A stretch of DNA of 56,291 bases from Actinomycetota bacterium (GTDB lineage Bacteria; Actinomycetota; Thermoleophilia; RBG-16-64-13): contig JAHJSA010000002.1 in NCBI GenBank assembly GCA_018830645.1, forward strand, positions 1 to 56,291, read 5' to 3'. The notes under the pieces are model-generated. The model saw only the letters and a program-made list of their open reading frames with translations, made no database searches and was not told the DNA's origin. A program made the position numbers and the translations under genes. Position 1 is the stretch's first letter, and every line of letters begins with the position of its first letter. Positions 35,884-45,686 of this stretch are shown here, piece after piece.

Positions 35884-35980
35884 ATCCCACTCCCTTCGCG
35901 CGCACGGTGACACAGTCGACACCGCACGGGAGGGTGATGCCTATGTGTTCAGACCTCCTCCGGCATGGGCGAGTCTTGGG

Positions 35981-36024
35981 GCGATCCCGCCCAACGGAGG
36001 CAGCGATCCCGCCCAACGGAGGCA
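35981..36024. repeat. 22-base tandem duplication
   Basis: GCGATCCCGCCCAACGGAGG followed by CA occurs twice head to tail with no mismatch, at 35981-36002 and 36003-36024. It lies in the leader of the membrane trio about 95 bases before its first ATG. It could be a protein or RNA binding site that was duplicated, or simple slippage. Confidence 0.85.
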
Positions 36025-36117
36025 GCCGCTCCGATAGCGCCAGATTTCACGAACTCCCAGCACACCCATGGGTTCCGTCGAATTACTTCATGACTACTCG
36101 CGATTCCTGGAGGGACT

Positions 36118-36579
36118 ATGAACTCCAAAGCAGCGGAACGCGTACTCGCGTTGATTCTCTTCTGGGCGGTGGCAGCGGCAATCACGTACGTATTCTGGTG
36201 GATGGGCAAGATGAGCGCCGACGATGCCAGCGCCCTCGTGACGGCGCCGAACTTCTCGGCCGTCTTCGCCTACTGGGGTCTATTCTTCACCTTCTTCATC
36301 GGCCTATACCTGGGCATGGGGGGAGGCGAATGCTTCTCCTGTACGCTCGAGGGTGATCAGACCTTCTCCCCCGATGTCTTGCGCAAGGCCTGCGGCACCG
36401 CCATCGCCTTCGTCGGCACGGCGGTGTCGGTCATGCTGACGACGCGCTTCGCCCAGTACGGGCTGCCCGAAGGGGCCTTCGGTCTCAACTTCACCTCAGG
36501 CTCGCAGGTGCTTTCCCTGCTACCTCTCCACTGGGGTTTCGTCTGGCTCGTGTTCGTCCAGCACCTCAGACTGGTGTAG
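36118..36579 (+). CDS. Four-helix membrane protein, trio member 1
   Basis: The 153-residue protein has about four membrane helices near residues 9-28, 47-66, 88-108 and 130-150. The loop after helix 2 holds GGGECFSCTLEGDQ, a CxxC pair. Just before helix 3 is DVLRKACGTAIAF. The next gene has PVVRKSVGTVVIL at the same place and the same topology, so the two look like diverged paralogues. ATG at 36118 follows GGAGGG. No family is recognised. It is the first gene of a run leading to mtaB and mtaC, which suggests a membrane role in the same process. Confidence 0.72.
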   Translation: MNSKAAERVLALILFWAVAAAITYVFWWMGKMSADDASALVTAPNFSAVFAYWGLFFTFFIGLYLGMGGGECFSCTLEGDQTFSPDVLRKACGTAIAFVGTAVSVMLTTRFAQYGLPEGAFGLNFTSGSQVLSLLPLHWGFVWLVFVQHLRLV

Positions 36580-36590
36580 GGGGTACCACG

Positions 36591-37010
36591 ATGAGCAGAA
36601 CAGCAGGCAAGATCGGGGTCGTCGGGGTCGTCGTCATCCTCGCGGCGATCAGCACCTACGTCATGTACCTCTTGGAATGGACGGTCAGAGGATCGGATAC
36701 CGCTCAAGGTCTCCTGGGATTGGACATCTGTCTCTGGGTCATCTTCTGGACCTTGTGCCTGACAGGCTATTGGGGTCTCCCGGCCGACAAGGTGCCCGTG
36801 GTCCGCAAGAGCGTGGGCACCGTGGTCATCCTCGCGCTCGGCCTGGCTTTCACGTATGTCTTCAAGGCCATCACCCCCGCGATCGTGGGCGGCACTGTGA
36901 GCGGGGTGGTCTCGGAGGCGTACCCGCTGATGTCGCTGACGTACATCGCCTGGAGCCTCGTGTTCGTAATGACGGCGCTGTGGGTGGGGTCGTTCTACTC
37001 GAAACTCTAA
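36591..37010 (+). CDS. Four-helix membrane protein, trio member 2
   Basis: The 139-residue protein has about four helices (residues 8-27, 42-60, 73-95 and 112-135). It shares the RK-x-x-GT motif before helix 3 and a FW-x-L-x-L-x-G-Y-x-G segment in helix 2 with trio member 1 but lacks its CxxC. It starts 11 bases after member 1, with GGGGGTA just before ATG. I do not recognise a family. Its pairing with member 1 suggests a hetero-oligomeric membrane complex. Confidence 0.72.
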   Translation: MSRTAGKIGVVGVVVILAAISTYVMYLLEWTVRGSDTAQGLLGLDICLWVIFWTLCLTGYWGLPADKVPVVRKSVGTVVILALGLAFTYVFKAITPAIVGGTVSGVVSEAYPLMSLTYIAWSLVFVMTALWVGSFYSKL

Positions 37011-37055
37011 CCCCAGCCACACCAACGACGATTCCGTACCAGGAGGTCATGCAAC

Positions 37056-37220
37056 GTGAACACCAGGAATCGAGTCATGCTGGAGGTGCTGGTCGTCGGA
37101 GTCCTGACGGTCGTCTCCACCGTCATTCTCCTCGGCCTCAACATCGGCGGAGTCATCGGCTCTGTCGTGTCCCTCTGGGCGCTCATGTACATGCTGCTCT
37201 ACCACTATCTCGTCACGTGA
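37056..37220 (+). CDS. 54-residue membrane peptide, trio member 3
   Basis: A short frame from GTG 37056 to TGA 37218-37220 encodes VNTRNRVMLEVLVVGVLTVV, then a second hydrophobic segment (GGVIGSVVSLWALMYMLLYH) and YLVT. AGGAGGT at 37041-37047 is well placed. Strong hydrophobicity with a basic N-terminus supports a real one- or two-helix membrane peptide. It follows member 2 by 45 bases and has the character of a small subunit. No homologue is known to me. Confidence 0.65.
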   Translation: MNTRNRVMLEVLVVGVLTVVSTVILLGLNIGGVIGSVVSLWALMYMLLYHYLVT

Positions 37221-37369: not shown

Positions 37370-37594
37370 GGAGAGTTCGTACTAACGTGCCCACCGGTCG
37401 GGGAGAGCTGCGGGCGAGGGTCTCACGCGGCGAGCCATTCGGTTCCTCAAACGGTGCAGGCACCCGTCAGCCTTTGGGGGGAGGTGCGGCCTATGGAGTG
37501 ATCTCAGTCGGCGCCACAGACCGACCAACTGACGCCAACAGACGGCGCCGGTGACCGGCAGGCTGGACTCACACGAACCAACGGAGGGAGACGC

Positions 37595-38968
37595 ATGCCT
37601 AAGTATACGTCGATGGCCTATGGCAGCTGGGAAGAGATGATCTTCGGCACAGCGAAGCATCCGGTTTCCATAGGCTTTGGTCCGGTAGAGCTTGGCAAGA
37701 AGCACGTCCACCCGCAGATCGTGCCCCATCCCCGCCCGGGGAGTGAGGCCACGAAAGAGAAGATCCTCAAAGAGTATCAGCGTATGACCGAAGACGCTCT
37801 GAGCCACTGCGCGGCTCTGGGCTTCCCCAGCATCGTGATCGAGTTCGAGCACATCTACCAGATGACCAGCCAGCCCGAGTGGGCGGCCGCCATCTTCGCC
37901 CAAGCCAAGGCCCAGATGAAGGGGTACTACGAGAAGTACGGCCTGAAATCGGCCTTGATCTCCACCGTGGCGGACCTTCGCAAGCCCGACATGGTGAACA
38001 TGCGCAAGTGCCAAGAGATCGACTGGATGCTCGCGACGTTCGACTCCACCGCGGCGAACGGCGCCGACGTGCTCTCTATCGAGACCATGGGCGGCAAGGA
38101 GGTCTTCGACTACGCGATCCAGCGCAACGATATGAAGGGGATCATCTTCGGCATCGGCGTGCTGTCCAGTATAGACATGGCGTGGCTGTGGCCTCAGATC
38201 GTCACCATAGCCAAGAAGCACGGCATCACCCCTGGTGGTGACACCGACTGCGCCCGTGGCAACACCGCCATGTTCATGGCAGGCGGCTACACCGCCACCG
38301 ACGTCCCGCACACCGTGGCCGCCCTGGCCCGGGGTTGCTCGGCCGCACGTTCCCTGGTGGCCTACGAGTCCGGCGCCACCGGGCCCACCAAGGACTGCGC
38401 CTACGAAGACCCGATCATCAAGGCCATCACCGGCGTGCCCATCACCATGGAGGGTGTCGCCTCGGCCTGTGCGCACGCGGAGCTCCAGTCGAACCTGGTG
38501 GCGGCGGTCGTCGACCTGTGGAGCAATGAGGCGGTCGAGTACCACGACATGTTCGGCGGCTCGAGCGTCGAGGTCTTCACGGAGATCCTCGGCTACAACG
38601 TGGCTCAGATGAACGCTGCAATCGAGCTCGGCTACGCCAAGGAGCTGCAGGCCATCAACGTCGCGAGCGACAAATACCGTGACGTCCACGGGTTCATGCT
38701 GTCGCCCGACAACTCGTACGAGATCGGCAAGGCCATCGTGGCCAACGTCGACAGCTACTACTTGCGGGCGAAGGCAGCCGTCCTGAAGACGGCTGAGTTG
38801 ATCTCCGCCGACAAGAAGATGCTGCTGTCCGACTTCGAGAAGGACGCGCTCGCCAAGGCCCGCGCTGACGTCGAGGCGCTGCCCGACAACGAGGGCGACT
38901 TCATCGATATGTGCCTCAGCGAGTACAGCAAAGTGCCGGGCTTCGACCCCACCTCCTACGGCTTCTAA
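37595..38968 (+). CDS. mtaB: Methanol:corrinoid protein methyltransferase MtaB
   Basis: The 457-residue protein has the full MtaB pattern: KYTSMAYGSWEEMIFG at the start, LSIETMGGKEVFDYA, GGDTDCARGNTAMF, RSLVAYESGATGPTKDC, ITGVPITMEGVASACAH, and SNEAVEYHDMFGG. Glu163, Cys219 and Cys268 fall where the zinc ligands Glu164, Cys220 and Cys269 of the Methanosarcina enzyme lie. MtaB activates methanol on zinc and passes the methyl group to Co(I) of MtaC. The ATG follows GGAGGGAGACGC. mtaC lies about 80 bases downstream. No mtaA is in the window. Confidence in the family is high; in vivo substrate is inferred. Confidence 0.95.
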   Translation: MPKYTSMAYGSWEEMIFGTAKHPVSIGFGPVELGKKHVHPQIVPHPRPGSEATKEKILKEYQRMTEDALSHCAALGFPSIVIEFEHIYQMTSQPEWAAAIFAQAKAQMKGYYEKYGLKSALISTVADLRKPDMVNMRKCQEIDWMLATFDSTAANGADVLSIETMGGKEVFDYAIQRNDMKGIIFGIGVLSSIDMAWLWPQIVTIAKKHGITPGGDTDCARGNTAMFMAGGYTATDVPHTVAALARGCSAARSLVAYESGATGPTKDCAYEDPIIKAITGVPITMEGVASACAHAELQSNLVAAVVDLWSNEAVEYHDMFGGSSVEVFTEILGYNVAQMNAAIELGYAKELQAINVASDKYRDVHGFMLSPDNSYEIGKAIVANVDSYYLRAKAAVLKTAELISADKKMLLSDFEKDALAKARADVEALPDNEGDFIDMCLSEYSKVPGFDPTSYGF

Positions 38969-39050: not shown

Positions 39051-39815
39051 ATGATAAAGACAGTCAACGATCTAACCGATTTCGACCCGATCTTCATCCG
39101 CTACGACATCAAGATCGCACCTAAGAAGAGGGCGGCCTCCGACGTTTCCACGGACCCGGCGCTCCAAGCGATCGCAAAGGGAGTTGTAGAGGGCGACGAG
39201 GACATGGTGGCCGAAGCCTCCAAGGCGGCCATCGCGTCCAAGGGTCCCCAGACAGTGATCGACACCCTCATCCTCGGCATGGCCGAGGTGAGCAAGCTCT
39301 GGGACGACGGGGTCTACTACCTACCCCAGGTGATCCTCTCCTCCGACGCCCTCATGGTGGGGCTCAACATGGCCGAGGAGGCCTTGGGCTCTGCCGTGGT
39401 CAAGAAGGGCACCGTGGTGATGCACTGCGCCCACGGCGACATCCATGACATCGGCAAGAACGTCGCCGCTGCTCTGATCCGGGCGAACGGCTACAAGGTC
39501 ATCGACCTCGGTTCCGACGTGCCGGAAGAGACGGTCGTCAAGGCGGCCAAGGACAACAAGGCCGACCTCGTGACCGGCACCGCGCTTATGACGACCACTA
39601 TGTCGGCGTTCCACCGGGTCGCCGAAGGGCTGACCAAGGAAGGCATCAACATCCCGGTCGTGGCCAGCGGTGGTGCGGTCTCCGAAGAGTGGGTGACCAG
39701 CTGGGACAGAGGCGTGTATGCCACGTTCGCCAAGCAAGGCCCGGAGATGGCCGGGGACGCAGCCTCGGGCATGTCATGGGAAGACATGCGTGCCAAGTGG
39801 AACCTCGTGCTGTAG
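39051..39815 (+). CDS. mtaC: Methanol corrinoid protein MtaC
   Basis: The 254-residue protein has a helical cap domain (LILGMAEVSKLWDDGVYYLP) followed by a B12-binding Rossmann domain with HGDIHDIGKN. His132 should be the lower axial ligand to cobalt. LTGTALMTTTM-like TGTALMTTTMSAF and VASGGAVSEEW complete the corrinoid site. It carries the methyl group from MtaB. ATG at 39051 has CAGGAGGG upstream, so the longer frame to 38997 is not used. It is co-transcribed with mtaB and ends before a strong terminator. Confidence 0.95.
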   Translation: MIKTVNDLTDFDPIFIRYDIKIAPKKRAASDVSTDPALQAIAKGVVEGDEDMVAEASKAAIASKGPQTVIDTLILGMAEVSKLWDDGVYYLPQVILSSDALMVGLNMAEEALGSAVVKKGTVVMHCAHGDIHDIGKNVAAALIRANGYKVIDLGSDVPEETVVKAAKDNKADLVTGTALMTTTMSAFHRVAEGLTKEGINIPVVASGGAVSEEWVTSWDRGVYATFAKQGPEMAGDAASGMSWEDMRAKWNLVL

Positions 39816-39919: not shown

Positions 39920-41011
39920 ATGGATCACGTCCCGTATCCCGATTTTTCGGCCGCGGACCTGGATTCGCTGCTGGCGGAGGTCCGCCACGTCACCTCGGCT
40001 CCGGTGGCGGCCACGGAGCGGACCGGCGCCGACCATGTGTACCTTGTGGGCGACGATCGGGTGCTCTTCACCGGTTCGTTCTCCAACGAAGAAGGCCGCA
40101 CCGTAGAACGAGGCTTGGTTCTGCGCCGCTGGCCCACCGCCTTGCTCGCCGGCCGGGCGGACCTCGTTCCGCCGCTCGGTTTCTACCTCGACCACGACGC
40201 TCTCCTCTACCGCTGTGCCCTCGCCTACAGCCTCAATACGCCGCTGGCCCTCCACGGGCATACCGGCGTGGGCAAGACCGAACTCGTGCGCTATTTCGCC
40301 TCTCTCCTCGGCGCCCCCGTCTACCGCATGAACCTTCACGGCCTCTCCACCACGGACGACATCATCGGCAGACTCCTGCCCGCCGGACACGGCACGGTGA
40401 CCTTCCAGGACGGACTGGTGACCACGGCCGTGCGGGGAGGAGGGCTTCTGCTTCTCGAGGAGATGAACGCCACCGGCCAGGAAGTGTGGTTCGTGCTCCA
40501 CGGCCTGCTCGACGGTTCGCGGGCACTGGTGGTGGTCGAGAAAGACAACGAGGTGGTGCATCAACATCCCTGGTGCCGCATCTACGCAACGTTCAACCCC
40601 GGGGAGTACCCCACTCTCTACCCGGGCACCAAGGAACTCTCGGCCGCCTACCTGCGCCGCTGGGCCTCGGTACGCATGGGGTTCCTCGACCTCGAGGCTG
40701 AGCGCACCATCCTACTCGAGCAGCTTCCGGCCCTCGCGCGACCCGAGCATGCACGCATGCTCGACTCCATGCTGCAGGTCGCCGATGTCTGCCGCGAGAT
40801 CCTCGCGAAGCGGGTGCATGCCTTCAACTTCGTGATGAGCACCGGCATCCTCCAATCGTGGGCGACACTAGCGCTGCACCTAGGCCCTGTGAGCGCCGCC
40901 AAGATGGCGTTCTACGACCTGCTCGACGATCGTATGAAGGCCATCTTCCGCGAACAGATCTTCGCGTACGCCACCACGTGGGATCTGACCCGCCTCGACG
41001 CAGGCGCCTAG
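39920..41011 (+). CDS. MoxR-family AAA+ ATPase (NorQ/CbbQ-like)
   Basis: The 363-residue protein has an N-terminal extension of about 100 residues, then an AAA+ module with Walker A GHTGVGKT (residues 113-120), NLHGLSTTDDIIGRL, Walker B GGGLLLLEEMNAT, sensor CRIYATFNPGE, and LRRWASVRM with the arginine-finger region. MoxR-type ATPases act with VWA partners to mature or activate metalloenzymes (NorQ/NorD, CbbQ/CbbO). ATG at 39920 follows GGGGAGAG. It is next to mtaC and convergent with the VWA gene. A role in loading or activating the methyltransferase proteins is an inference. Confidence 0.85.
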   Translation: MDHVPYPDFSAADLDSLLAEVRHVTSAPVAATERTGADHVYLVGDDRVLFTGSFSNEEGRTVERGLVLRRWPTALLAGRADLVPPLGFYLDHDALLYRCALAYSLNTPLALHGHTGVGKTELVRYFASLLGAPVYRMNLHGLSTTDDIIGRLLPAGHGTVTFQDGLVTTAVRGGGLLLLEEMNATGQEVWFVLHGLLDGSRALVVVEKDNEVVHQHPWCRIYATFNPGEYPTLYPGTKELSAAYLRRWASVRMGFLDLEAERTILLEQLPALARPEHARMLDSMLQVADVCREILAKRVHAFNFVMSTGILQSWATLALHLGPVSAAKMAFYDLLDDRMKAIFREQIFAYATTWDLTRLDAGA

Positions 41012-41075: not shown

Positions 41076-43076
41076 CTACTCCCAGAGATCCCGGCTCCGC
41101 GCAGCTCCTTCGCGCACGATCTCTTCTAGGAGGTCCACGAACACACCCAGGGCGTCCCACCCCTCGGTCAGTGCCACCGCGCGACGGTGGTAGTCGGGCT
41201 GAACGCCGATACCAACCGCCAGCAACTCGATGCGGGCTGCGGTCAGCCAGGGCAGCAGCCCCTCCTCGTAGTATTCGCGCAACGAGTCGGCGCCCACGGC
41301 CGGCAGCGAGATCGTCGACGGAGTGCCGTCGGTCACCACTACGAAGATCTTTCGTTGCTGTCGTAGACGATCGGCCTTCTGCTTCGCGAAGGCGATCGCC
41401 TCCATCTCCAGGGTGCCGGACATCAGGTAACCGAAGTCGCCGCCGAACCACGGCTGAAGGGTATCGCGGTGGTGGTCATAGAGTTCGGTGACCCCCGAGG
41501 AGTAGAGTGTGACGTCAACCGGCACCCGAGCGGTCGTAAGCAGATCGGTGAACGCGTACGCGATGGCCAGCGCCTTCTCGGCATTGCGCCTCTGCAGCAT
41601 GCTGTACGACACGTCCACCAGTACGTGGAAGTAGTAGCTCAACGCCTGTGGAGCCTTCAGACGCTGGAATAGCCGCAGATCTTCCACGGTCACGAAGCGG
41701 CGCAGGTTGGTTACGCCCACGTGCGTACCGCTGCGAAAGCGCCCCTGCTCGCGCCGCTCCCAGTTGACCCGCAGCGCACGGCGAAGCGGTCCCGCCTGCT
41801 CGGCAAAGGCCTCGACCGCCTGAGGACCGTACTCACCGGCCATTCCGCGCAGTACACCGGAGAGGATCTCGTCCGGCATGAGATCACGGGCGAGCGCGTG
41901 GTCGATGCGAAAGAGAGCGTGCCCGGCGACCATATGAGGCAGCGTGACGAGGACCGTTCCGACCGGACCCTGGGCTACATCAGGAGCCACCTCTCTCGCA
42001 ATGCTGCAGAACTGGGCGATGCCACGCCTCTCCACCGGAGAGTGCGTGCCCTGGGGTGCGGGAACAGGGTCGGTCGAGCCGGGGGCAACGACCGCGTCGC
42101 CGAGCGCCAACAGCGCCGGGAGCAGATCGTACACCGCGAACTCCGCCAGACGGTAGGCCGCCTCGGCATCGTCGCTCCCTGCGATGAGTCGCGCCGTGGG
42201 AGCCAGTCGTTCGAACGCCTGCCCCACTTCGGAGGCGTGCCCCACTTCGAACGCCTGCCCCACTTCGAACGCGTGCTCGGACTCGGGCACACCGCTCGTC
42301 TCCGCGTCGGCTCCGGCCGTCGTGCCGGAGCCGACAGTCCTCATCGCCAGCGCCAGCAACCCGAGCAAGGCGGCCACGGGATCGGCAGACCGACTGAGTT
42401 CCCGGTCACAGGCGAAGCGGGGTTGCAGGTGGCGCACGGCTCCGGCGAAACGGCGTGCGAGCAGAGCGTCGGTCCTGGCCCCTTCGAGGTGCTCAAGAAG
42501 GCCGCGCACCGCGTTCACAGTCTCTCGCTCGGCCAGACGAGCCCTCACGGATGTCGGGAGCCGTCTCCAGCGTTGATGGTGCGGACGGAGGACCCAGTCC
42601 AACGGTTCGGGTGCCGTGAGGTCGGCGGCACTGATGGAGTCCCGCGCACCTGTCGTCGTCACGTGCCGGCGGGCCATTGGGGGCGCACCCAAGACCCGAC
42701 CCAAAGCGTGCAGGAAGCCGGTGCGGAAGGCTTGGAGGAAGGCGGTCCGCACGGAGGGCGCACTCTGGGCTCGTGCGGTAGGTGCACTCGCGAGCGGGTC
42801 GAGCCTGCCTGTCTTCGAGTCGGCGGGCAGGTTACGGGGCGAGAGCAGGTCCACCCACAGATGCACCGAGAGCGTGCCGTCGCGCGACTGCATCCACGTC
42901 ACGGGCTCGGCGTGGCCGAGAGACCAACTGATGTGCACATCGAGTCCACAGAGTCCAGACGCGAAGAGACGCGCGGACGTCTCTATGAGTTCGAGCTCGC
43001 GCTCGAGGTGCTCGCTCTCCGGCGGATCCAGCCCCGGAAAGGCGAGGTGCTCGAACGTGACCGGGCGTCGACTCAC
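41076..43076 (-). CDS. VWA-domain protein (NorD/CbbO-like partner of MoxR)
   Basis: The 666-residue protein has a long N-terminal region without recognised motifs, including a run of repeats EVGQAFEVGHASEVGQAF near residue 270. A C-terminal von Willebrand A domain follows. The metal-ion adhesion site is complete: VDVSYSM (residues 487-493), SGTLEMEA (Thr) and VVTDGTPS (Asp). NorD- and CbbO-type proteins pair with MoxR ATPases to remodel a target enzyme. It is convergent with the AAA+ gene, unusual for a pair that would often be in one operon. It is the downstream neighbour of the RamA-like gene on its own strand. Confidence 0.82.
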   Translation of the reverse strand: MSRRPVTFEHLAFPGLDPPESEHLERELELIETSARLFASGLCGLDVHISWSLGHAEPVTWMQSRDGTLSVHLWVDLLSPRNLPADSKTGRLDPLASAPTARAQSAPSVRTAFLQAFRTGFLHALGRVLGAPPMARRHVTTTGARDSISAADLTAPEPLDWVLRPHHQRWRRLPTSVRARLAERETVNAVRGLLEHLEGARTDALLARRFAGAVRHLQPRFACDRELSRSADPVAALLGLLALAMRTVGSGTTAGADAETSGVPESEHAFEVGQAFEVGHASEVGQAFERLAPTARLIAGSDDAEAAYRLAEFAVYDLLPALLALGDAVVAPGSTDPVPAPQGTHSPVERRGIAQFCSIAREVAPDVAQGPVGTVLVTLPHMVAGHALFRIDHALARDLMPDEILSGVLRGMAGEYGPQAVEAFAEQAGPLRRALRVNWERREQGRFRSGTHVGVTNLRRFVTVEDLRLFQRLKAPQALSYYFHVLVDVSYSMLQRRNAEKALAIAYAFTDLLTTARVPVDVTLYSSGVTELYDHHRDTLQPWFGGDFGYLMSGTLEMEAIAFAKQKADRLRQQRKIFVVVTDGTPSTISLPAVGADSLREYYEEGLLPWLTAARIELLAVGIGVQPDYHRRAVALTEGWDALGVFVDLLEEIVREGAARSRDLWE
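42211..42277. repeat. 18-base tandem repeats inside the VWA gene
   Basis: TCGAACGCCTGCCCCACT repeats at 42211, 42229 (with changes), 42247 and partly at 42265. It encodes the repeated EVGxAF hexapeptides in the protein. It is a coding minisatellite whose copy number may vary between strains. Confidence 0.8.
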
Positions 43077-43140: not shown

Positions 43141-44790
43141 CTACCTGGCGCGCAGGAACTCGGTGAAACGGAAGACGTGCTCGGGACAACCCAACTCGCA
43201 GCGGAGGCAGCTCAGACCCAGGCAACGAGCGCTCCGCACCTCGGCTTGAGGTCGCCCATGCTCGTCTTGACCGATGGTGATCGCGTCCTCGGGGCAGTTC
43301 TCCCCACACTTGCCGCACTCGGTGCAGCCCTCGAAGCAGGCGATCATCGACATGCCCACATCTTCTACCACCGCCAGACCCCGGCTGCCCATGTCTGGAA
43401 TATCCCGCTCTACCAAGCGGATGACCTTCGCCGGCACGGCGTGCTCGCGCGGCGCCGGCAAGCCCGCGCGTTTCATGAACTTCAAGTACATGTCCCAGGG
43501 CATGCCCTCGGTCCAATAGGAGAGCTCAAGCACGTAGACCTGCTTGAACACCGGCGCCTCGGCGAACATGCAGTGCGCAGCGCGCAGGTCCTTGGCGATG
43601 CGCTCGATCTGCCACAGAGACTCCGGTTCGAGCACCAGGTCACGCGCCAGCATGAGCGACGTGTTCCCCACCTGGTAGATGGTCGTCACCGCCGCGGGCA
43701 CCATGCCGATGGTCTGAGCCTTCAAGGCGTCGACGTAGGTGCCCGAAGCTCCGGCCATGTAGGCGACCTTGACCTCTTCCAGGTCGATGCCCAGCTCGTG
43801 TGCGAGCGTGACGTGACCCGCGCGCGCGGCGCCGATGGCTTTGCCCACCTCACCCACGTCCAGGTGCGAGAGGGCGATCCCGTCCGCCAGATGCATCATT
43901 CCATCGAGAGAGTCTATCTTGGGCAGCCGCAGCACCTCATCCTCGAGTCCCAAGGCGATGAGAGCCATCACGCCCGTGCCCGTGATGCCTCGCGCCCGTA
44001 TGCTACCAGCGCCATGTACCTGCCCGGTCCGAGGGTCGACCAGGTCGCCTGCCGCCGTGTACATGTGCGCATCGAGCACCAGGTTGCGGTAGGAACCGTC
44101 CACCCGATCGAGGTCCGAGATAGCCCCAGGAGCCGCCAGCATGCCGTGCTTGATCGCCTGGCCCTCGAACGCGGGCCCGCAGGCAGCCGAACCGGTCACC
44201 ACCCGGTCGCCGATCTTCAGAGCCATCTCGGCGTTCGTGCCGTAGTCGGTGACCAGGGCGATCTCGTCACGGTCGAGCATGCCCGACTTGAGCATCATGG
44301 CCAGGGCGTCGGCGCCCACTTCGTGCCGCACGGCCGGCGGCACGACCAACTCGGCGCCGCTGGGCAGATCGAGCCCCTCGATGTCACCGGCGGTGATGAT
44401 GCGCGCCTCGCGCGATTGGACCTCGACTCCCAGCGACGCCCGCTTGCTCTCCCCCGCATAGGCAAGGTCGCGGATCTCCATCGCCTGGAACAGGGAAAGC
44501 TGGATGGGATTGCCGCAGATGGCCACCCGCTCGACTCGGGCTCGCGGCACGCGCAGCGCAGCGATGACCTTGTTCACCGAATCGAGCATCAAGGTGTGGG
44601 TGATCGAGGACATGCCGGCCGAGGAGGTCTCCACGGCGAAGTGCAGGTGATCCATGACGTTCCCGCCCGGAAGCGGGTGTTGCGTCGTGATGGCGGTAGA
44701 CAGGATCTCCCCGCTACGCAGATCGACCGCCTGCCCGCGGATGCCGCTGGTGCCCAGATCGAGGGCGATACCGTACCTTTCCACGCTCAC
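43141..44790 (-). CDS. RamA-type reductive activator of corrinoid methyltransferases
   Basis: The 549-residue protein starts with an actin-like ATPase fold (GIALDLGTSGIRGQAVDLRS), includes LVTDYGTNAEMALKIGD and GSAACGPAFEGQA, and ends with two [4Fe-4S] motifs: CTECGKCGENCP (from residue 489) and CLGLSCLRCELGCP. The layout, with C-terminal double ferredoxin clusters, is that of archaeal RamA, which uses ATP to re-reduce Co(II) corrinoids, rather than RACo with an N-terminal [2Fe-2S]. It should keep MtaC active. The start GTG overlaps the CobW stop (GTGA). Named by similarity; archaeal RamA acts on methylamine corrinoid proteins, so its target here is inferred. Confidence 0.88.
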   Translation of the reverse strand: MSVERYGIALDLGTSGIRGQAVDLRSGEILSTAITTQHPLPGGNVMDHLHFAVETSSAGMSSITHTLMLDSVNKVIAALRVPRARVERVAICGNPIQLSLFQAMEIRDLAYAGESKRASLGVEVQSREARIITAGDIEGLDLPSGAELVVPPAVRHEVGADALAMMLKSGMLDRDEIALVTDYGTNAEMALKIGDRVVTGSAACGPAFEGQAIKHGMLAAPGAISDLDRVDGSYRNLVLDAHMYTAAGDLVDPRTGQVHGAGSIRARGITGTGVMALIALGLEDEVLRLPKIDSLDGMMHLADGIALSHLDVGEVGKAIGAARAGHVTLAHELGIDLEEVKVAYMAGASGTYVDALKAQTIGMVPAAVTTIYQVGNTSLMLARDLVLEPESLWQIERIAKDLRAAHCMFAEAPVFKQVYVLELSYWTEGMPWDMYLKFMKRAGLPAPREHAVPAKVIRLVERDIPDMGSRGLAVVEDVGMSMIACFEGCTECGKCGENCPEDAITIGQDEHGRPQAEVRSARCLGLSCLRCELGCPEHVFRFTEFLRAR

Positions 44791-45686
44791 GCCTTCTTCC
44801 CGCCGAACGAACGCACGGCCTCGTCGAGTGTCGCATTGCTCAGGTCTGTGCCTATGACCACCAGCCGTCCACTGGGCGCCGGACCCCAGGGACGCTCGTC
44901 GACCCGCCCCGAGGCCACATCGAACCGATACCAGCCGTCGACCGTGCGCACGATCGCCTTGGCCCTCTCCACCCGGCCCATCTGTCCGGTAGTGAGCTCA
45001 TCGAACAGTTCCCGGACTTCCCGCCGCTCAACCAGGCGGTCGACTTCGTAGCTCACCGATGCCAAGCCGGTGAGCACCTCCGCGTCCCCGGGGTCTTCAA
45101 GAGGATGCGGAGCCGGTAGCTCGACACCTTCTCCGATGCGCCCGTTGACGGTCGGGATGATCCACGCTTCGGGGTTCATGCTCTCCAAGACCGCCTTCAG
45201 GGCTTGGGTCCGCCCCTCCGAAACCAGGTCTGTCTTGTTGAGGAGGAGCACATCAGCCTGCGTCACCTGGGAGGTGAAGAATGCCGGGCTATCGCGCAGG
45301 CGCTCGGCGAACGTGACCGCATCGACCAGCACGAACACGCGGGCGCCACCGACTTTGTCCGCAAGGTCGCTGTGTCGTAGAGAACGCACGACTTGGGCGA
45401 CGGTGGCCACGCCGGTGGGCTCTATGAGAAGCCGCCGCGGGTGCCATCGATCGAATATTTCGCCGATCTGCGTACGGAAGTCGAGGCGCAGGGTACAGCA
45501 GATGCAGCCGCTGGCAAGCTCGACTACCTCGGTACCCTCACCCAGAAGGGCGGCATCGATACCCACATCCCCGAATTCGTTCACCAACACAGCAAGCCGC
45601 GACGGATCGGGTTCATTCTGGATCATCTCAAGGATACAGGTGGTCTTGCCCGCGCCGAGATACCCGGCGATGATATCCACATCCAT
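44787..45686 (-). CDS. CobW/COG0523-type GTPase metallochaperone
   Basis: The 299-residue G3E GTPase has Walker A GYLGAGKTT, the metal motif GCICCTL (CxCC), LIEPTGVA, and the G4 motif LLNKTDLV. The C-terminal domain has YRFDVASG. ATG at 45686 follows AGGAG. COG0523 proteins deliver zinc, cobalt or iron. Because MtaB needs zinc and MtaC needs a corrinoid, supplying metal to this methyltransferase is plausible but inferred. It precedes the RamA-like gene with a four-base overlap. Confidence 0.88.
   Translation of the reverse strand: MDVDIIAGYLGAGKTTCILEMIQNEPDPSRLAVLVNEFGDVGIDAALLGEGTEVVELASGCICCTLRLDFRTQIGEIFDRWHPRRLLIEPTGVATVAQVVRSLRHSDLADKVGGARVFVLVDAVTFAERLRDSPAFFTSQVTQADVLLLNKTDLVSEGRTQALKAVLESMNPEAWIIPTVNGRIGEGVELPAPHPLEDPGDAEVLTGLASVSYEVDRLVERREVRELFDELTTGQMGRVERAKAIVRTVDGWYRFDVASGRVDERPWGPAPSGRLVVIGTDLSNATLDEAVRSFGGKKA

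Follow-up and report, generated by a model that had tools for sequence, protein, structure and literature searches.

An orphan trio of small membrane proteins, probably built from one repeated hairpin, is a candidate partner of the methanol methyltransferase genes mtaBC in Thermoleophilia-like bacteria

Introduction

The use of methanol by corrinoid methyltransferases has so far been treated as wholly soluble. In acetogens, methanogens and Desulfotomaculum kuznetsovii, the methanol system comprises MT1 (MtaB and MtaC) and MT2 (MtaA) (PMC5770442). The methanol operon of Moorella thermoacetica consists of mtaA, mtaB and mtaC; a membrane partner has not been reported for it, and the flanks of mtaA1B1C1 contain a gene for a putative methylmalonyl-CoA mutase and a hypothetical gene of 150 bp (PMC13391211). 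In the 56,291-nucleotide stretch of DNA analysed here (the window), three genes for small membrane proteins (the trio) lie upstream of mtaB and mtaC. What are these proteins, and do they belong to the methanol system? A conserved membrane complex that travels with mtaBC would suggest a membrane step that has not been considered, be it entry, docking or energy coupling.

Results

The three membrane protein genes

The trio consists of the following genes.

36118-36579, plus strand: m1, 153 aa, four predicted membrane helices in two hairpins; an open reading frame with orthologues in five genomes
36591-37010, plus strand: m2, 139 aa, four predicted membrane helices in two hairpins
37056-37220, plus strand: m3, 54 aa, GTG start, two predicted helices forming a single hairpin

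The coordinates, reading frames and orthologues agree with the original prediction of three plus-strand genes for proteins of 153, 139 and 54 residues that are nearly all membrane helix. The trio also lies, as had been stated, on the strand of mtaB and mtaC and upstream of both, with 374 bp between m3 and mtaB. Orthologous trios, unchanged in order and strand, were found in five further genomes (G001, G010, G014, G005 and G013). The six genomes form one family, and its genera are labelled g1 (G000, the genome of the window, and G001), g10 (G010 and G014) and g5 (G005 and G013). The named records with a trio are uncultured Actinomycetota, one of them labelled Thermoleophilia.

Identity to the window proteins (alignments A1-A3) was 55-92% for m1, 56-92% for m2 and 56-94% for m3. 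Close pairs differed mainly at third codon positions; the differences between G000 and G001 at codon positions 1/2/3 were 7/4/40 in m1, 10/4/37 in m2 and 4/2/12 in m3. The dN/dS ratio was 0.09-0.12 for this pair (0.086 in m1) and 0.05-0.07 within g10; the trio is thus under strong purifying selection (dN/dS 0.05-0.12). The order-conserved orthologues, the third-position differences and the low dN/dS together indicate that m1, m2 and m3 are genes and not chance frames. An Rfam search of the regions between and upstream of the genes found no riboswitch and no other element. Upstream of m1, at 35979-36030, there is a tandem pair of copies of about 22-24 bp (gcgatcccgcccaacggaggca), and none was seen in G001.

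Searches for related families and folds

No described family was matched by any trio member in Pfam, NCBIfam or PHROG, with the Pfam search extended to an E value of 10 for the window proteins and of 1 for the full set of orthologues, and a PDB sequence search gave nothing credible. A match of m3 to DUF6050 (PF19517) was dismissed as noise, scoring 14.9 bits against a gathering cut-off of 27; similar weak matches occurred in 7 of 14 unrelated control genomes. AlphaFold models built from the six sequences had four helices each for m1 and m2, with a mean pLDDT of 66 and 61, respectively. Searches with these low-confidence models (Foldseek and VIA-align) returned generic helical matches alone, mostly GPCRs, and no Foldseek E value below 0.4. 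The trio had been described as an unrecognised family, and neither the profile nor the structure searches, Foldseek included, placed it in a known one; in particular, a profile match to a known family of unrelated role was looked for and not found.

Weak matches of m1 in two other genomes were judged to be chance, one being a frame in a repeat-rich surface protein (G006) and the other a broken frame (G003). Viral contigs and plasmids contained neither the trio nor mtaB. By sequence comparison, the trio is new to the databases searched and, within the scope of these searches, is an orphan family of a single Thermoleophilia-like clade. The family is known from six sequences, and the single scan of a genome collection used the motifs of one protein, a pattern-based approach to which strongly diverged members would be invisible; the clade may therefore have distant relatives elsewhere.

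Topology and motifs

The predicted topology gives m1 and m2 four helices each and m3 two. Hydropathy and the placement of basic residues (positive-inside rule) suggest that the N-termini, and the middle loops of m1 and m2, are probably cytoplasmic, and the basic-residue pattern further suggests that all hairpins point the same way. An RK-x-x-GT motif had been proposed as common to members 1 and 2. It is present in the window proteins (RKACGT and RKSVGT) but only loosely kept in the relatives. The additional CxxC pair claimed for member 1 was confirmed in the window.

36331-36342, plus strand: CxxC (C72-F-S-C75) in a loop of m1, predicted to be cytoplasmic by the positive-inside rule only

Both g1 and g10 have this pair, whereas g5 has it deleted; it is therefore not essential, and an essential redox role was rejected. 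Charged or polar residues conserved in or near helices include H138 and H149 of m1, D45 of m2 and E10 of m3, the last an invariant glutamate where helix 1 begins.

A repeated two-helix hairpin

To describe the likeness among the proteins, we divided m1 and m2 into hairpin units, with m3 as the fifth unit. In the leave-one-out test, a profile of four units scored the fifth, and 73 unrelated membrane hairpins served as controls.

36127-36321, plus strand: hairpin unit m1a, residues 4-68; 8.6-20.4 bits, best control 6.1
36370-36576, plus strand: hairpin unit m1b, residues 85-153; 0.1-6.9 bits, best control 4.2, the weakest of the set
36600-36782, plus strand: hairpin unit m2a, residues 4-64; 3.7-17.1 bits, best control 10.7
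36798-37007, plus strand: hairpin unit m2b, residues 70-139; 2.4-11.2 bits, best control 8.4

The median score of every left-out unit was above all 73 control hairpins, by a wide margin for m1a, a moderate one for m2a and a narrow one for m2b, m3 and m1b. Pairwise comparison gave z values of 5.0 for m1a-m2b and 4.1 for m1a-m2a, both higher than all 92 comparisons with unrelated membrane hairpins of the same genomes, the trio excluded. The value for m2a-m3 was 3.8, and pairs involving m1b were weak. These results agree with the earlier view of members 1 and 2 as diverged paralogues (m1a-m2b) and extend the likeness to m3. One tryptophan of the second helix is invariant across all five units, and the most conserved stretch of m1, SLLPLHWGFVW, lies in unit m1b (alignment A1). 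Invariant positions were concentrated in the second helices (62/103 vs. 33/102; Fisher p 8e-5, a guide only, since neighbouring positions are not independent), as expected if the second helices pack inward. It is very probable from these comparisons that all three proteins are built from one two-helix hairpin, in a 2+2+1 arrangement of five copies.

Methanol genes downstream of the trio

Downstream of m3, the window contains the following genes.

37595-38968, plus strand: mtaB, methanol:corrinoid methyltransferase (PF12176, E 1e-189, 631 bits, 3-456)
39051-39815, plus strand: mtaC, corrinoid protein (PF02310 and PF02607, B12-binding; alternative ORF start 38997)
39920-41011, plus strand: MoxR/CobS-like AAA+ ATPase (AAA_5; alternative ORF start 39890)
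41076-43076, minus strand: VWA/CobT-like protein (CobT_C)
43141-44784, minus strand: RamA-type corrinoid reductive activase (TIGR04270, 733 bits, cut-off 500; Fer4_7)
44787-45686, minus strand: CobW-family GTPase (PF02492)

The mtaB product aligned with PDB 2i2x (E 3e-138), with all residues aligned to the metal ligands E164, C220 and C269 conserved, and scored 637 bits against NF040651, under the strict cut-off of 720. Judged by its full-length PF12176 match and the conservation of the residues aligned to the Methanosarcina metal ligands, the mtaB of the window is genuine. The top NCBIfam matches of mtaC were MtaC models, below cut-off. The genes for the AAA+ ATPase and the VWA/CobT-like protein adjoin mtaBC in g1 and g10, and their products are possibly a metal- or corrinoid-insertion pair for the MtaBC methyltransferase. 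The CobW gene is kept next to that for RamA in g1, G013 and g10. MtaA homologues were found in all six trio genomes, beside mtaBC only in g10, and acetyl-CoA synthase in five; the sixth genome is only 64% complete.

At about 37480-37500 on the plus strand, some 90-100 bp before mtaB, a GGAGGTG site strongly resembling a ribosome-binding site is followed by a two-codon frame. The frame reads ATGGAGTGA in g1, ATGGTGTGA in G005 and ATGACCTAG in G013 and is absent in g10; either it is a minimal leader or it arose by chance.

Association of the trio with mtaBC

We compared the distribution of the trio and mtaB. In a survey of the class, the trio was present in 6 of 399 genomes and mtaB in the same six; in a sample of the phylum, both were present in the same 3 of 396. 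No trio genome lacked mtaB in these surveys, so the trio was not found mostly away from corrinoid methyltransferase genes. In the rpoB tree, which includes five of the six positives (those with rpoB), the positives form one clade (support 94/93). The co-occurrence therefore counts as a single evolutionary event, and we rejected the six-of-six agreement as independent evidence.

Gene order was more informative. Between ribF and rpsO, G005 has only the trio, mtaB and mtaC, and G013 has the trio, mtaB, mtaC and the RamA and CobW genes. In the seven relatives checked, including G000 and G001, ribF is the direct neighbour of rpsO, the aligned ends lying 130-218 bp apart, and the mta block of g5 is opposite in strand to both. 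In g1, the trio and mtaBC have the same order in a neighbourhood that differs from that of g5; of 52 window genes, solely the trio and mtaBC were also found near the trio in G005. The shared order amid different surroundings indicates that the trio and mtaBC stayed together while their neighbours changed. The gap between m3 and mtaB is 230-390 bp across g1 and g5. In g10, the trio lies on a contig other than that of mtaBC, flanked by genes for a radical-SAM protein and an ABC-2 permease, and both the trio and mtaBC are kept. The proposed tie to mtaBC thus stood in part: the same six genomes carry both, linked in g1 and g5, but they are unlinked in g10 and represent one phylogenetic event. The gene order is stronger evidence for the link than the co-occurrence and makes it good, if not proven. 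We consider it likely that the trio belongs to the mta module.

As a separate observation on this site, the g5 block (L012, 5930-11116) interrupts an otherwise unbroken truB-ribF-rpsO-pnp cluster, which is an unusual place for a metabolic cassette.

Discussion

We propose that the trio could be one small membrane complex of five two-helix hairpins (2 + 2 + 1) and part of an anaerobic methanol module. In this module, MtaB would move the methyl group from methanol onto the corrinoid of MtaC, RamA would keep that corrinoid reduced, and an MtaA would hand the methyl group onward, with acetyl-CoA synthase present for its use. The hairpins may pack around a narrow path, their conserved tryptophan-rich second helices inward, and the complex would then be a gated pore or facilitator through which a small uncharged C1 compound passes, in the simplest case methanol on its way in. 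The assembly into one complex, the packing, the pore and the substrate are what we infer from these data. Since methanol is the substrate of the module, our leading guess, made with modest confidence, is a facilitator for methanol or for a different small neutral C1 compound. The main objection is that methanol readily crosses lipid bilayers, so a pore may be unnecessary. The low confidence of the models (mean pLDDT 66 and 61) and the lack of an outstanding fold match would also count against a pore, and the absence of such a partner from the published Moorella mta operon (PMC13391211) speaks against the proposal as a whole. Given a link to the mta module, a pore is possible but doubtful; taken whole, the explanation of the trio as a hairpin pore or facilitator of the methanol module is tentative and rather unlikely to hold in full.

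The same proteins might instead transport nothing and serve as a membrane dock, whose short cytoplasmic loops would keep MtaB and MtaC or the activase at the membrane, close to electron carriers or to enzymes acting downstream. The association with the module, the conserved basic residues of the predicted cytoplasmic loops and the CxxC of g1 and g10 are consistent with docking, but the parts predicted to face the cytoplasm amount to only about 25 and 12 residues, conservation is highest inside the membrane rather than in the loops, and g5 lacks the CxxC. We consider a dock quite unlikely. A small membrane pore or bundle accounts for the same-orientation hairpins, the conserved aromatic second helices, the tiny loops and the absence of a soluble domain better than a docking platform would.

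Both of these readings presuppose a role in the module. The trio could also be a set of clade-specific membrane genes of unrelated role, for example in the envelope or in alcohol stress, that came to adjoin mtaBC and travelled along. Its restriction to one clade, its separation from mtaBC in g10 and the 230-390 bp between m3 and mtaB in g1 and g5 argue for this; the ribF-rpsO block of g5, which holds the trio and methyltransferase-related genes and nothing else, and the retention of the trio in all mtaB genomes found, unlinked ones included, argue against it. On balance, an unrelated role is unlikely but far from negligible. A multi-subunit, all-membrane set adjoining a corrinoid methyl-transfer system also raises the thought of an ion-coupled or energy-converting complex that works together with methyl transfer or corrinoid activation, in a manner loosely comparable to the sodium-pumping Mtr of methanogens. 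The charged and polar residues conserved within the helices or close to them (m3 E10, m1 H138/H149, m2 D45) would suit such a role. There is, however, no Pfam match to the trio and hence none to Mtr subunits, no carboxylate is common to all hairpins, and methyl transfer from methanol has no obvious need for driving. We consider ion coupling very unlikely.

Several known systems resemble the trio in part. The surrounding genes have the parts of a corrinoid methanol module (MtaB with its metal ligands, MtaC, a RamA-type activase, MtaA homologues and acetyl-CoA synthase) and differ from it by the three added membrane proteins and by having mtaA beside mtaBC only in g10. Mtr, the methyl-H4MPT:CoM methyltransferase of methanogens, likewise combines corrinoid methyl transfer with a number of membrane subunits, but the subunits of the trio are far smaller, and here the corrinoid is carried by MtaC, a soluble protein of its own; the membrane-subunit families of Mtr were absent from the Pfam matches of every trio member. 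The proteolipids of rotary ATPases resemble the trio in having two-helix hairpins of one orientation, with one or two in each chain. The m1 model (mean pLDDT 66) aligned with the V-ATPase proteolipid 7uw9_g at Z 6.4 and rmsd 4.7 over 134 residues, within the chance range for helical bundles, and Pfam searches gave no ATP-synt_C match to the trio. The methylamine permeases MtmP and MttP of methylotrophic methanogens are also membrane proteins encoded near corrinoid methyltransferases; they are single large transporters, whereas the trio consists of three tiny proteins without a transporter-family match.

It is conceivable, though we would not count on it, that in the trio a methanol:corrinoid methyltransferase has, for the first time, a membrane partner of its own. 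This partner would be a pore or coupling complex, pseudo-fivefold and of 10 helices, from an undescribed repeat family restricted to a single lineage of uncultured Thermoleophilia-like bacteria. As an orphan family whose internal repeats are clear, the trio is also useful for understanding how small hairpins make heteromeric membrane complexes.

The findings also bear on the lineage itself, in which mtaB and acetyl-CoA synthase are present together. Thermoleophilia-affiliated MAGs from an acidic pit lake have near-complete Wood-Ljungdahl pathways (PMC9326234). A full-text literature search found no paper linking Thermoleophilia, methanol and mtaB. The whole genome of G005 (C1) gave 19 matches to the MtaA/URO-D family, which suggests many methyl-compound systems. 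In addition, an MtaA/CmuA-family (URO-D) gene of the window genome and five relatives (L095-L100; G000:C112:6401-7900) has one in-frame TGA within the motif SPG-TGA-DMP, conserved across these six genomes. At this position a cysteine would be expected for the family, and the gene probably encodes a selenocysteine-containing methyltransferase.
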